Source of the DNA: Phycisphaera sp.
GTDB taxonomy: Bacteria; Planctomycetota; Phycisphaerae; Phycisphaerales; SM1A02
Assembly: GCA_016124975.1 (NCBI GenBank)
Contig: WGMP01000001.1
Location: forward strand, 1 to 38,052
DNA: 38,052 bases
Direction of reading: 5' to 3'
In this document: in pieces, positions 22,015-35,768 of the stretch
How positions within the stretch are numbered: the first letter of the stretch is position 1
Layout: every line of letters begins with the position of its first letter
Notes under the pieces: generated by a model
Told to the model about the DNA's origin: nothing
What the model saw: only the letters and a program-made list of their open reading frames with translations
Database searches by the model: none
Position numbers and translations under genes: made by a program

Positions 22015-22018
<4 letters not shown>

Positions 22019-24159
22019 CGCGCGCGCTCCACGGCGGAGAGAAGAAGCGCCTCGAGCACGCAGCCGACGCTCCACGCCTGCATGGGGCAGCCACGCCGCG
22101 TGTGCGGTGGGTCGCCGTCGACGATCTCGGGGAGCGAGCCGATGCCACCTTCATGGGCGCGCGCGGCAAGGTCGGCGAGCACTTCCGCGCGGAGAAGCTC
22201 GGCGCGCGGCGAGCCCGCGGCTTCGAGGGCGCGGAGATGGAGGCCGAGCAGGAACGGCCACGCGGTGCCGTTGTGGTAGGCGAGGTCGCGCGAGCGCTGG
22301 TCGCCTTCGTAGCGGCCGCGATACTCGGCCGCTCCGCGGGGGAGCGTGCGAACGGCAAGGGGCACCACGAGCTCTCGCTGGATCGTGGCGAGCGCGTCGT
22401 CGCGCCACGCCGCGGGAAGGTGCTCCGCGCAGAGCGCAAGCAGGAAGAGCTGGTTCGGCCTGATCGCGCCGTCATCGCCAGCGGGGCCGTCGAGGAGATC
22501 AGAGAAGCACTGGATCGAGGGGTTCCAGAAGCGGGGGATCGCGCTCGCCGTGCGTTGCGCCGCAGCCGCGAGCCGCGCGCCATCCTCGGCAAAGGACGGC
22601 GCGTGCGCAGCGATGAAGCGGGCGAGTCGGCCCGTCGCCGCAAGCCACAGCGCCGAAAGCTCGATCGGCTTCCCAGCACGCGGCGTCACGACGAGGTCGC
22701 CGATCTTCGCGTCCATCCAGGTGAGCTGGAGACCTTGCTCGCCCGCCGTGACGAGGCCGTCCCCTGCGACGCCGATTCCGTGGTGCGTGCCTGCGAGATA
22801 GCTCGCGGTGATCGAGAGAAGGCGCGGAAGCTCCGTAGCAAGCCAGGCGTGGTCGCCCGTCGCGCGCGCAACCTCCGTCGCGGCGACGAGCGCGAGAAGG
22901 GGCGCATCGGCGCTGTGATACTCGGCGCCCGCGCGCTCGTCGGGAAAGCGGTTCGGAAGCAGTCCTCCGTCGAGATGGTCGAGGAAGGTGGCGAGGACAA
23001 GCTTCGCCTCGTCGCCGCGCCGCGTCGCGAGGAGAAGACCGGGGAGCGCGAGCATGGCGTCGCGGCCCCAGTCCTCGAACCACGGATACCCCGCGATGAT
23101 CGAGCGTCCTTCGGAGCCGTCGCGCCGCCTGCGCTGCACGATGAAGTCGTCGGCCGCAAGGGCGAGCGAGCGGAGCTCCCGCGGCGCCGAGGCGAGGCCC
23201 GCACGCTCGATGAGGTCGCGCCGCCGCGCGCGCTCGCGCGAGAGGATCATCCCTGCGTCGAGCCCGCGCGACGCGAGCATCGCGCGCAGAGGGTCGTCGG
23301 CGGAGCCGGTCGCGCCCTCGCCGAGGCCGATCACGATGCCGCGCGTCTCGCCGGGCGCGAGGATCACCGTCGCGGTGAGCGCGTGGCACGCGGAGCCGAG
23401 CGCGTCATAGCCGCGCGCGCGCTCCTCGACGAGCTGGTGTCGGCGCCACCACACGCACTCGGCCGCGAGCGTGGCGCCGTCTGCGGCGACGAAGAGCGTC
23501 GTCGGCGTGGGCGCGTGGGCGTTGGCGGGAAGCATGATCTCCGCGCGCGCGCCTTCGCCATGGAGGATGCGTACCTCGGGAAGCCACGCCGCGTCGGGGT
23601 CGAGCCGATGGTGTCCACGGTGCTCGACGAAGATGCGCGCGTCGAGCTCGATCGACGCCGGTGAATCGACGAGCGTCCACAGCACCGCGACCGCGCGCGG
23701 CTCGCGCAGCAGCAGGATGCGCCGCTCGAGGCGCGCTGGTCCGACCTCGAAGACCGTCGTGGGAATCCCGTCCTCAAGGTGGAAGCCCGCGATGCGGCGG
23801 TGACCGTCGGGGTCGACGGCGCCGTCCGACCATCGGCGCACCGCGAGCGCGTGCCGCGCGGAGCCGACCGTGACCTCCTCGTCGATGAAGGGGACGAGCA
23901 TGCGGCGCCCGATCGGCGGCGTCGACGCCGCGACGAGAAGCCCGTGATAGCGCCGCGTCGCAAGTCCGTTCACGGTTCCGAGCGCGTAGTCGCCGAAGCC
24001 GGAGGTCACGAGCCACTCGCGGCGCGCGCCCTCTGTGACATCGCAGGCGACGCCTCGGTCAAGCTCCTGGATGAGTGAGGGCGGTGCGCCGAGGTTCATG
24101 GCGAGCTCTTGCGAAGCAGCGTCGTGCGAGCCCGGGATGACGGCGGTCTGATCGGACAT
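22015..24159 (-). CDS. Glycogen debranching enzyme family (amylo-alpha-1,6-glucosidase, GH133-like)
   Basis: 714 residues from the ATG at 24159, preceded at 6 bases by TATCGT; an alternative ATG lies at 24099. The N-terminal GDE domain (about 25-250) has 'EWLVTSGFGDYALGTVNGLATRRYHGLLVA' and 'IDEEV'. The C-terminal amylo-alpha-1,6-glucosidase domain (about 300-700) shows 'PWFEDWGRDAMLALPGLLL', 'LLPNRFPDE', 'GLQLTWMDAKIGD', 'VTPRAGKPIELSALW' and 'YHNGTAWPFLLG'. This set removes alpha-1,6 branch glucose in archaeal- and bacterial-type GDEs. The stop overlaps the start of the GH63 gene. Cytoplasmic, no signal peptide. Length and motifs are complete, so it should be active. Confidence 0.92.
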
Positions 24160-24165
24160 CACCGC

Positions 24166-24171
24166 ACGATA
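24166..24171 (-). promoter_or_regulatory. Putative -10 element of the debranching gene
   Basis: TATCGT on the minus strand, then 6 bases (GCGGTG), then ATG. It suggests an internal leaderless promoter in the cluster. Confidence 0.4.
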
Positions 24172-24238
24172 TCGCGGCAACTGCAGTCGGAAGCGGGGCG
24201 TTTCCGCGATCGGCGCGAATCGCATCCCCGCGACGCGC

Positions 24239-25396
24239 TCACGACAGACGCCGCGCGGGGAAACGACCTGCGAAGAGATGGAGATCCTCGGCCGCCACGG
24301 TGAACGCGCGCCGCGCGCCGACCGCGATGCCCGCGGCGTCGCGCGCGTCGAGGCGGACGCGAATGGACTGATCGGGAGACGCGCCCGATGAATCGCCCGT
24401 CGCCGCCACGACATCGACGAAGAGACCTGCGGGCTCGATGGCGCGGACGACCAAGTCGAGGAGAAGGCCCTCGCGCTCGCCCTCGCCCTCGCCAACGCCG
24501 TCCGCGCGCCGTATCTGCGTGGAGCGCATGCCGAGCCATCCACCGTCGGCTCCGAGCGGTGCCTCGCGCAGGCGACGCTCGATCGCGGTGGGAAGTCGCA
24601 CGACTCCCGCTGCCGCACCCCGTGCATCGATGGAAATCGCCTCGAAACCGAGCTCGTCGACGAGCGCGGCGGTCTCGAGATCGGGCGGGTGGCGATGGAG
24701 CTCGGCCGCTGGGCCGAACGCACGCACGGCGCCGTCGACGAGGACGAGCATGCGGTCGTCTGCGCCGTCCGCGAGGGCGAGCGCGTCGCCGGGGTCGTGG
24801 GTCACGACGATCGTCGTCGCGGCCGTCGCATGGCGCATCGTGCGCACGAGCGCGCGCACGGCGAGCCGGTTCGCGCGGTCGAGGTTCGCGAACGGTTCGT
24901 CGAGGAGCGCGACGCTCGGACCGCGCACGAACGCGCGCCCGAGCGAGACGCGCCTGCGCTCGCCCGCCGAAAGCGTCGCAGGCCGCCGGTCGAGGAGCGC
25001 GCCCACGCCGAGCGCCGCGGCCGCCTCGGCCACGCGCGTGCGCCGCGCGGGCGCTGCATCGCCGCGTGGAAGCGCGGCCGCCTCGAGGTTCTCGCGCACG
25101 GTGAGATGCTCGTGCAGCGCCGCGTCGTCGAAGCTCATGCCGACGCCGCGCGCGACGGGATCGAGCGCGCGCCAGTCCTCGCCGTCGAGATGGATCGAGC
25201 CCGCTGTCGGCTGCTCGAATCCCGCGAGAAGCGAGAGCAGCGTGCTCTTGCCCGCACCCGACGGCCCGACGACCGCAAGCAGCGCCCCGCGCGCGAGCGT
25301 GAACGAGACATCAGAAAGGACGGCACGGGAAAGGTCGGCCCGCGACCCGCGGACGAGCGTCAGGCGCTCGACCTCGAGTCCAGCGCGCCTCATCAC
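24239..25396 (-). CDS. ABC transporter ATPase, sugar-import (MalK/UgpC-like) type
   Basis: 385 residues. Walker A 'GPSGAGKST' (about 44-52), Q-loop region replaced by 'GVGMSFDDAAL', signature 'LSAGERRRVSLGRAF' (LSAGE in place of LSGGQ), Walker B 'VALLDEPFANLD', H-loop 'VVTHDPGDAL'. The last about 130 residues form a TOBE/MOP-like regulatory domain ('LGMRSTQIRRA', 'FTVAAEDLHLFAG'), the CUT1 sugar-importer layout. No permease or binding protein gene is nearby, so its membrane partner must be elsewhere; some such ATPases serve several importers. Start: GTG at 25396 overlaps the prfB stop (GTGA), and an ATG follows at 25393; either is possible. Position before two glucan-active enzymes suits sugar uptake. 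Confidence 0.88.
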   Translation of the reverse strand: MMRRAGLEVERLTLVRGSRADLSRAVLSDVSFTLARGALLAVVGPSGAGKSTLLSLLAGFEQPTAGSIHLDGEDWRALDPVARGVGMSFDDAALHEHLTVRENLEAAALPRGDAAPARRTRVAEAAAALGVGALLDRRPATLSAGERRRVSLGRAFVRGPSVALLDEPFANLDRANRLAVRALVRTMRHATAATTIVVTHDPGDALALADGADDRMLVLVDGAVRAFGPAAELHRHPPDLETAALVDELGFEAISIDARGAAAGVVRLPTAIERRLREAPLGADGGWLGMRSTQIRRADGVGEGEGEREGLLLDLVVRAIEPAGLFVDVVAATGDSSGASPDQSIRVRLDARDAAGIAVGARRAFTVAAEDLHLFAGRFPARRLS

Positions 25397-26500
25397 CCGC
25401 GCTCCGCGCGCCTGCGCTTCAGCTCCGCGTCGATGAAGTCGGCGATGTGCCCGTCGAGCACATGCTGCGGGTTGCCCACCTCGTGGCCAGTGCGGTGGTC
25501 CTTCACGCGGTTGTCGTAGAAGACATACGAGCGGATCTGGTTGCCCCAGTCGCGCGACACCTTGCCGCCCGTCGCGGCGGTGAGCTCGGCGGCGCGCCGC
25601 TCCTCCTCGAGCTGCTCGAGCTTCGCCTGAAGAACCGCGAGCGCCTGCGCCTTGTTCTGCGGCTGGTCGCGGTAGGTGCTCGCGACGACCTGAATGCCCG
25701 TCGGAAGGTGCGTGACGCGGATCGCCGACGCGACCTTGTTCACGTTCTGTCCGCCTGGGCCCGACGCGCGCACGAAGGCCACGATCTCGAGGTCCTTGTC
25801 AGGGATGACGAGGTCGCCATGCTCGAACTCGGGCGTGACATCGACGGTGGCGAAGCTCGTCTGGCGCTTGCCTTCGGCGTTGAAGGGGCTGACGCGCGCG
25901 AGGCGGTGCGTGCCGCGCTCGCAGTTCATGTAGCCGTAGGCGTAGGGGCCCGAGACGCGGTACGACACCTCGGAGATCCCCGCCTCGGGGCCGAGCGAGC
26001 GCGAGATCTCCTCGAGCTTCCAGCCCATCTCCTTGAAGTAGTAGAGGTACATGCGCTCGAGCATGCCCGCCCAGTCCTCGGCCTCGGTGCCACCCGCGCC
26101 CGCCTGGATGGCGACGAAGCAGTTGCGGTGGTCGTGCTTCCCCGACAGGAGCGACTGGCGCTCGATCTTGTCCATCCGCGACTGGAGCCCGAAGAGCGTC
26201 TCATCGACCTCTGCCAGCATCTCGCGGTCGCCCGCCTCCTTGGCGAGCTCGTAGCCGACCTTGGCGTCGTCGAGCAGGCGGATCGCCTCCTCGAGCGGCT
26301 CGACCTGCGCACGGACGACCTTGCTCTCCTCGATGACCTTCTGGGCCGCCTTCGGGTTCTCCCAGAAGTCGGTGGCGTTCATGCGGTCGTCGAACGCGGC
26401 GCGTTCGGCAAGCTTCTGATCGTAGTTAAAGAGAGTCGCGGAGCGTGATGATCCGCGCCTCCAACTCGTCGATCACCGGTTGATGAGCGTCGTAGTGCAT
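25393..26500 (-). CDS. prfB: Peptide chain release factor 2, with programmed +1 frameshift
   Basis: RF2 releases peptides at UGA and UAA codons. The main frame has the catalytic GGQ in 'ASGPGGQNVNK' and the RF2 anticodon-reading tripeptide SPF in 'ARVSPFNAEGK', plus the 'AGAGGTEAEDWAGML' block. The first 24 codons lie in another frame from the ATG at 26500 ('MHYDAHQPVIDELEARI', then 'ITLRDSL'). Translation meets TAA at 26428-26426, and a +1 shift at CTT continues with 'NYDQKLAERAAFDD' into the main frame. The joined product, 368 residues, matches the usual RF2 length. The peptide around the joint aligns with the E. coli joint (LRGYL-DYDAK). The in-frame stop is UAA, not the usual UGA. Coordinates cover both parts; base 26428 is skipped. 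Confidence 0.93.
26425..26431 (-). promoter_or_regulatory. prfB programmed frameshift site CTT-TAA-C
   Basis: Codon 24 (CTT, 26431-26429) precedes TAA (26428-26426) at codon 25, followed by C, the same codon position as the E. coli site CTT-TGA-C. The preceding bases (CGCGACTCT) contain no Shine-Dalgarno-like AGGGGG stimulator. Confidence 0.82.
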
Positions 26501-35580: not shown

Positions 35581-35586
35581 TCTGAA

Positions 35587-35670
35587 TGCCCAGGAGAGGA
35601 CTCGAACCTCCAAGGTTGTTACACCACCAGCACCTCAAGCTGGCGCGTCTGCCAATTCCGCCACCTGGGC
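35587..35670 (-). tRNA. tRNA-Leu (anticodon GAG)
   Basis: Acceptor GCCCAGG/CCTGGGC, D arm with GGCAGAC, anticodon arm CCAGC-TTGAGGT-GCTGG, class II variable arm, T arm with TTCGAGT. Discriminator A; CCA not encoded. Confidence 0.96.
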
Positions 35671-35768
35671 AGGTGGCCGACCGCCGCGGCTTGGGGTCGC
35701 GTCGGGGGACGGGAACGATAGCGGAAGCCGCGCGACGGGGCAAGGGCTTCGGGCAGCGTCGTGAAAGC

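Follow-up and report, generated by a model that had tools for sequence, protein, structure and literature searches.

How is the +1 frameshift of release factor 2 (RF2) synthesis stimulated at a prfB gene whose slip site lacks the Shine-Dalgarno (SD) sequence of the E. coli site? The E. coli slip depends on AGGGGG in the mRNA, which forms a duplex with the 3' end of 16S rRNA beside the E-site codon and so drives the shift. The question is raised by a locus in a 38,052-nucleotide stretch of a Phycisphaera sp. genome (contig WGMP01000001.1, positions 1 to 38,052), called the window throughout. There prfB lies on the minus strand: an ATG (26500-26498) opens 24 sense codons, the last being CTT (26431-26429), which is followed by TAA (26428-26426) and C (26425). 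From 26427 the +1 frame reads NYDQKLAERAAFDDRMNATDFWENP... and continues for 344 residues down to a TGA at 25395-25393. The RF2 body scores above the curated NCBIfam prfB cut-off TIGR00020 (387 bits vs 370), and the release-factor domain has four matches in the window's genome: prfB, one RF1-like protein and two in shorter frames. The coordinates and the TIGR00020 match confirm the initial annotation, in which the zero frame from 26500 ended at TAA and the +1 frame encoded RF2. The locus thus combines a short leader ORF that ends in an internal stop, RF2 coding sequence following it in the +1 frame, a slippery CTTT with C next to the stop, and a stop that RF2 can read (TGA or rarely TAA; TAA in the window). 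The elements of the switch are as follows.

26426..26500, minus strand: prfB zero-frame leader ORF of 24 codons, MHYDAHQPVIDELEARIITLRDSL, with TAA at its end (leader DNA compared among 13 genus members).
26428..26431, minus strand: slippery CTTT, where the P-site CTT would slip onto TTT (126/126 order sites, the rows having been selected by CTTT[AG]AC).
26426..26428, minus strand: internal stop TAA (UAA in the mRNA; the 126 distinct order sites comprise 68 with TAA and 58 with TGA).
26425, minus strand: C in the fourth position past the stop (126/126 order sites, under the same CTTT[AG]AC selection).
25393..26427, minus strand: RF2 body of 344 aa, read in the +1 frame, with SPF and GGQ motifs recognized by eye.
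35586..35671, minus strand: tRNA-Leu(GAG), which can read CUU and re-pair on UUU with a first-position G.U; its role is putative.

Closely 3' of prfB on the same strand (window 24239-25396 and 22015-24723) are an ABC-transporter ATPase gene and a glycogen-debranching-like gene, assigned from open frames and sub-cut-off family matches. The three genes are possibly on one transcript.

The start of prfB was read in the window's family (89 of 101 genomes matched), in 80 named records and in 40 loci from five other families of the order. The order is taken to be Phycisphaerales from the NCBI lineage and from the labels of relatives, which range over Planctomycetota, Phycisphaerae, Phycisphaerales and Planctomycetia and of which some are apparently wrong. 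CTTT[AG]AC was in place in 205 of 218 loci, giving 126 distinct 48-base sites when identical 48-mers were counted once. Many of L120-L199, which were placed in the order by 63-94% RF2 identity, seem to be the same genomes as other loci. The 13 loci dropped comprised eight without the stop (L083, L088, L093, L100, L117, L218, L230 and L231), three truncated (L136, L167 and L172) and two misaligned (L203 and L216). The class sample was 40 loci from 20 further families, of which 39 were used, L258 having no stop. From other classes 32 of 40 loci were used; five had no internal stop (L293, L325, L326, L327 and L336), and L281, L282 and L335 were left out.

The UAA is not a sequencing error. A search of 16 genomes of the genus gave 13 in which RF2 aligned from residue 1 (the other three gave no full RF2 match), and CTTTAAC, preceded by an identical CTCCGCGACTCT, is present in every one of the 13, among them the window's genome. 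This agreement rules out a base-call error at 26428. The substitution of UAA for UGA reported in the initial annotation is therefore real and is kept in the genus. That annotation had also named TGA in related genomes as evidence against its claim, and this is found in part: 58 of the 126 order sites have TGA, with the same hairpin (described below), and 68 have TAA. A quick tree built from 88 RF2 proteins without the joint residue requires at least nine TAA/TGA changes and has large clades that are uniformly TAA. Ordinary stop usage does not explain the UAA, because in a 413-kb sample of the window's genome (G+C 69%, 292 predicted genes) TAA ends only 4.5% of genes, compared with 84.6% for TGA and 11.0% for TAG. 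Mutation pressure is not an evident cause either, since TAA sites are not in AT-rich genomes (mean locus G+C 0.638 for 35 TAA loci and 0.645 for 15 TGA loci).

Prince 2025 (PMC12421855) gives UAA as 1.4% of frameshifted prfB genes in 8,164 genomes and describes it as scattered, without broad fixation in clades, and the SD as hyper-conserved; PMC3711429 gives the site consensus as YTT_TRA_C. Set against that published view, UAA held in whole clades looks unreported. A UAA in the A site could be recognized by RF1 as well as by RF2, so that either might terminate translation. PMC12421855 argues that RF2 still dominates at UAA generally, and it may do so here because RF1-only stops make up 11% of the sample. 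The same source links high UGA usage to loss of the frameshift; a later paper (PMC13245932) reports no significant correlation of UGA use with frameshift loss after phylogeny correction. Note that the window's genome retains the internal prfB stop despite its very high UGA usage (84.6% of the 292 genes).

Numbering from the C of CTT as 0, the E. coli AGGGGG occupies -9 to -4. These positions in the window read CGCGAC, which is not SD-like, and the best pairing of -14 to -2 with the 16S tail of the same genome is +0.1 kcal/mol, vs -10.7 kcal/mol for the real E. coli site. The canonical internal SD is thus missing, as the initial annotation had it, and its absence is kept in the genus. Lacking an AGGGGG-like SD three bases before CTT, the site is not of the E. 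coli sub-type. Across the order, 98 of the 126 sites, the window among them, pair with the 16S tail through -14 to -2 at just +0.1 or -0.5 kcal/mol, and GGGA at -8 to -5 occurs in none of the 126. The other 28 sites, which do not include the window, pair weakly through GUGA (-3.8 or -4.4 kcal/mol), about as strongly as the median for the rest of the class (-4.0 kcal/mol). The order is therefore not wholly free of 16S pairing, and the window is.

It had also been proposed that this lineage relies little on SD pairing, and that proposal needs tempering. SD use is moderate in the window's genome: of 286 starts, predicted with a rough gene finder and start choice of our own, 33% have a motif in front, compared with 57% of 42 starts in E. 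coli (controls 2%). The 16S tail is nevertheless intact, and 33% exceeds the 15% of 278 internal controls. Flavobacterium johnsoniae, which seldom uses the SD, retains a perfect one in prfB (PMC8710568).

The main feature of the site, which the initial annotation missed, is a conserved hairpin located where the SD duplex would be. The consensus is CGCGGAU-N7-AUCCGYG, with the 3' arm ending 5 nt before CUU. In the window its parts are as follows.

26451..26457, minus strand: hairpin 5' arm CGCGGAT, -26 to -20.
26444..26450, minus strand: hairpin loop of 7 nt, -19 to -13.
26437..26443, minus strand: hairpin 3' arm CTCCGCG, -12 to -6; the top pair in the window is T.C, leaving six pairs.
26459..26461, minus strand: GAG, which may form one strand of an outer stem beneath a G.A mismatch, with its partner CTC at 26435-26433 (predicted fold).
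26433..26435, minus strand: CTC, the possible outer stem partner of GAG (predicted fold).
26458..26462, minus strand: GGAGG, a perfect SD core at the 5' foot of the hairpin, -31 to -27 and thus distant from the canonical position (-9.3 kcal/mol with the 16S tail).

The window sequence from -30 to -2 is predicted to fold at -12.5 kcal/mol, giving a stable hairpin shortly upstream of where the slip occurs. Among the 126 order sites, drawn from six families, all seven stem pairs are present in 108 and six in 18, the top pair being open in 16 including the window. Below the stem, -28/-4 is G-C or G.U in 126/126 sites and -29/-3 is A-U in 118, G.U in five and C.U in three. The gap between stem and CUU is 5 nt for the seven pairs and 3 nt if the -28/-4 pair is counted, in which case stem and E. 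coli SD duplex share their last base. On inspection the two misaligned loci, neither of which is in the 126, also have the hairpin and TGA, L216 with G at -4. Folded over 121 nt, the site shows no exceptional stability (z -0.72), and no Rfam family matches there. In E. coli prfB itself (L342), the stretch before AGGGGG folds weakly (-5.8 kcal/mol for -30 to -2), which may be chance.

Over eight pairs, 98.2% of the 1008 cells in the 126 order sites are paired, and shuffled columns give 97.7%. Most of this pairing is therefore plain conservation, and because the order columns hardly vary, the evidential weight rests on changed pairs. The pair -25/-7 joins synonymous third codon positions, found in the order as GCG/CGC, GCG/CGT and GCA/CGT. 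Pairs that have changed still pair: GCA goes with CGT in L084 and L119 of the window's family and in L219 and L233 of another, and CGA goes with a T partner in L038 and L232. One C.T (L042) and one A.C (L232) are also found in the order. Over 80 class sequences, a set with six rows from the window's family, some chosen for their variation, the pair -25/-7 is GC in 36, CG in 27, GU in five, AU in four, UA in two and other in six. In that set the cells changed on both sides number 42 vs 13.9 +/- 2.6 in shuffles and the covariation score is 0.246 vs 0.100, both against controls that ignore relatedness. Counts of double-changed pairs and of pair types are not clearly above shuffles, either in the order (41 and 41 of 500) or in the 80 class sequences (399 and 73 of 500).

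Codon randomization that kept the protein was used to compare the mean number of the seven pairs found with that expected. The real and expected values were 6.82 and 5.26 for 91 sequences of the window's family, 6.94 and 5.25 for 35 sequences of the order's other families, and 6.05 and 4.69 for 39 sequences of other orders of the class; the 32 sites of other classes gave 2.28 against 2.41 expected. Third codon positions in the stem are held in the order: -28 is G in 126/126 sites despite eight different codons there, -25 is G or A and -7 is C or T, while the third positions of the loop vary. G.U cells far outnumber A.C cells (31 vs 1 in the order and 12 vs 3 in the rest of the class), indicating that the pairs are formed in RNA rather than DNA.

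The rest of the class has the hairpin in the same register, mostly as CCCGGAT...ATCCGGG. The -25/-7 pair is flipped from G-C to C-G in 27 of the 39 sites of other orders, mostly via synonymous changes (GCC/CGG in 20), and is otherwise U-A in two, G-C in four and unpaired in six; at least one of the seven pairs is missing in 15 of the 39. The presence of both pair types within single families (f11 and f18) suggests that the flip happened more than once. One family of the class has an AAGGA SD and no hairpin. A covariance model of the order's sites matched in 108 of 150 class genomes. In a phylum-wide draw of 118 genomes, 11 rows of which were marked as order or class, it gave eight matches, all in the class, and none in the roughly 107 genomes outside it, under stricter filters that lose weak matches. 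In another class, two members of family f45 (L289 and L321) are without an SD and have a CTGCAG palindrome before CTTTGAC with its 3' arm in the same register, and the third member (L322) has an SD. That palindrome is possibly an independent hairpin or a chance result of Leu-Gln codons.

Nine relatives whose prfB has no internal stop, the eight order loci given above plus L258, have three to five of the seven pairs (raw counts), and three of them still fold, by some pairing, at -10.2 to -11.7 kcal/mol. These relatives occur in three families (f1, f6 and f15), which suggests repeated loss of the switch within the class.

Two features of the sites, GGGA and GAGG, run oppositely across these groups. 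GGGA at -8 to -5 is present in 27/27 class sites with C-G at -25/-7, 0/5 with G-C or A.C, 3/7 others, 0/126 order sites and 6/32 sites of other classes. For GAGG at -30 to -27 the corresponding counts are 4/27, 5/5, 0/7, 107/126 and 0/32, and for TAA they are 0/27, 1/5, 0/7, 68/126 and 0/32. Loss of the proximal SD thus accompanies gain of the bases at the hairpin foot and tolerance of TAA.

These sequences lead us to propose, with a probability of about 0.6, that an mRNA hairpin replaces the mRNA:16S duplex as the +1 stimulator of the RF2 frameshift. The ribosome would read 24 codons, placing CUU in the P site and UAA (UGA in relatives) in the A site. With release factor plentiful, translation would terminate at the internal stop; with release factor scarce, the ribosome would pause, tRNA-Leu would slip from CUU to UUU, AAC would be read as Asn and RF2 would be made. 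The hairpin CGCGGAU/AUCCGYG, with the G-C pair below the G.A mismatch, would be melted by the passing ribosome and would refold behind it, its 3' strand lying on -12 to -4 and so spanning the positions that the SD duplex takes up (-9 to -4). In this picture we infer that the hairpin refolds on the ribosome and stimulates the +1 slip, that the gene is autoregulated in this organism, and which factor is sensed. That the hairpin may do what the SD does in E. coli is suggested by engineered precedents and by the stem, with the -28/-4 pair counted, ending at the base where the SD duplex ends. In PMC6321510, an engineered upstream hairpin acting on CUUUGA with 70S ribosomes gave about 60% of the SD level, which fell with a weaker stem; the effect was seen only without RF2 and was weaker than that of the SD, and the stem used had 12 bp. 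In PMC3639245, a 6-bp GC hairpin refolding behind the ribosome stimulates +1 shifting in yeast, and a hairpin acted half as strongly on -1 shifting once it stood 5 nt rather than 2 nt from the slip site. The latter result counts against the hairpin reading because the gap here is 5 nt (3 nt with the outer pair).

The foot of the hairpin can also be read as an SD that has moved: GAGG at -30 to -27 would pair with 16S rRNA while the hairpin loops out the intervening bases, leaving the SD duplex about 5 nt from CUU. We consider this unlikely, although several counts fit it. GAGG is found in most order sites and in all five class sites with G-C or A.C, is absent from the 32 sites of other classes and occurs in just four of the 27 C-G sites, all of which have the proximal GGGA; GG at -28 and -27 is present in 126/126 order sites, and the window's GGAGG pairs well with the 16S tail (-9.3 kcal/mol). 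The same bases are, however, accounted for by the outer stem GAG/CTC of the predicted fold, with -29/-3 mostly A-U; eight of the 126 sites lack AGG and yet keep the hairpin, and the exit channel may be too narrow for a helix placed between the SD and the P site. We therefore prefer the outer stem GAG/CTC to a displaced SD as the reading of the foot, and the sequences fit both. A more elaborate history, which we think rather improbable, is a stepwise handover in the Phycisphaerae. A proximal SD (GGGA) within the hairpin strand would have been lost as C-G flipped to G-C, leaving the hairpin plus an SD displaced to its 5' foot, which folding on the ribosome would bring into position; the freed stop would then have drifted to UAA and the switch would gauge RF1 plus RF2.

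Conservation of the encoded peptide and codon bias would leave the hairpin without a role, and indeed about five of the seven pairs are expected from the protein alone and shuffled order columns pair almost as often. We judge this quite improbable, given pairing above the codon-preserving expectation in all three groups, stem third positions that are held while those of the loop vary, and covariation that includes G-C to C-G flips. Interrupted palindromes near gene starts are a common operator shape, and the inverted repeat could by that resemblance be a DNA operator or other DNA site within prfB unrelated to frameshifting. The excess of G.U over A.C, the fixed register to the shift site and the fewer pairs in the nine stop-less relatives make a DNA site very unlikely. 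Equally implausible is synthesis of RF2 from the internal ATG at 26382, with the upstream part a leader peptide or decaying remnant: Met is found at body residues 14-19 in 121 of the 126 order sites, but a Met at that place is common in RF2 generally, and the leader, slip site, stop and hairpin would not persist across families if unused. Finally, the conserved bases might pair with another stretch of 16S rRNA rather than with each other, and the 3' arm does have a 7-nt perfect complement in 16S; a complement of at least 7 nt is also found for 309 of 500 shuffled 14-mers and the arms covary with each other, so that this pairing is most improbable of all.

Most sampled members of the order keep the RF2 switch without mRNA:rRNA pairing at the usual place, and have a natural hairpin in the same register. 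The comparison suggests that one kind of RNA duplex has been replaced by another at this switch. If the hairpin works as proposed, this is a natural case of a duplex swap known, in the literature found, from designed constructs. It raises the testable question of whether any duplex beside the E site is enough for the +1 slip or whether 16S rRNA is required, and the UAA variants offer a way to find out whether RF1, RF2 or both are sensed. Pairing of mRNA with rRNA is commonly regarded as an invariable component of the RF2 switch: its elements were termed hyper-conserved in a survey of 12,753 genomes, and the finding that a clade with altered anti-SD has no such frameshift was read as a sign that the pairing is critical. 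No natural hairpin stimulator in prfB was found in full-text literature searches, which did not reach most subscription papers or any supplements. The frameshift and UAA are already known; a natural prfB hairpin in place of the SD, order-wide and modified in much of the class, is what we did not find described earlier.

Among known systems the locus is closest in plan to the E. coli prfB +1 frameshift, with a leader of about 24 codons, a CUUU slip, an RF2-readable stop, a C in the fourth place and an RF2 body in the +1 frame. It differs in that the order sites are without AGGGGG, have a conserved hairpin in its register and use UAA in 68/126 cases. The UAA sites of PMC12421855 share the stop and the site, but are described there as scattered and beside a hyper-conserved SD, whereas here UAA is held by whole clades without a canonical SD. 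Flavobacterium johnsoniae prfB (PMC8710568) likewise keeps the frameshift in a lineage that uses the SD little, although its site has the perfect SD AGGAGG. The engineered hairpins of PMC3639245 and PMC6321510 also lie directly 5' of a +1 site, where they stimulate the shift and mimic the SD duplex. In contrast to those constructs, the hairpin reported here is natural, conserved and located in the gene itself, and has a stem shorter than that of the 70S construct.
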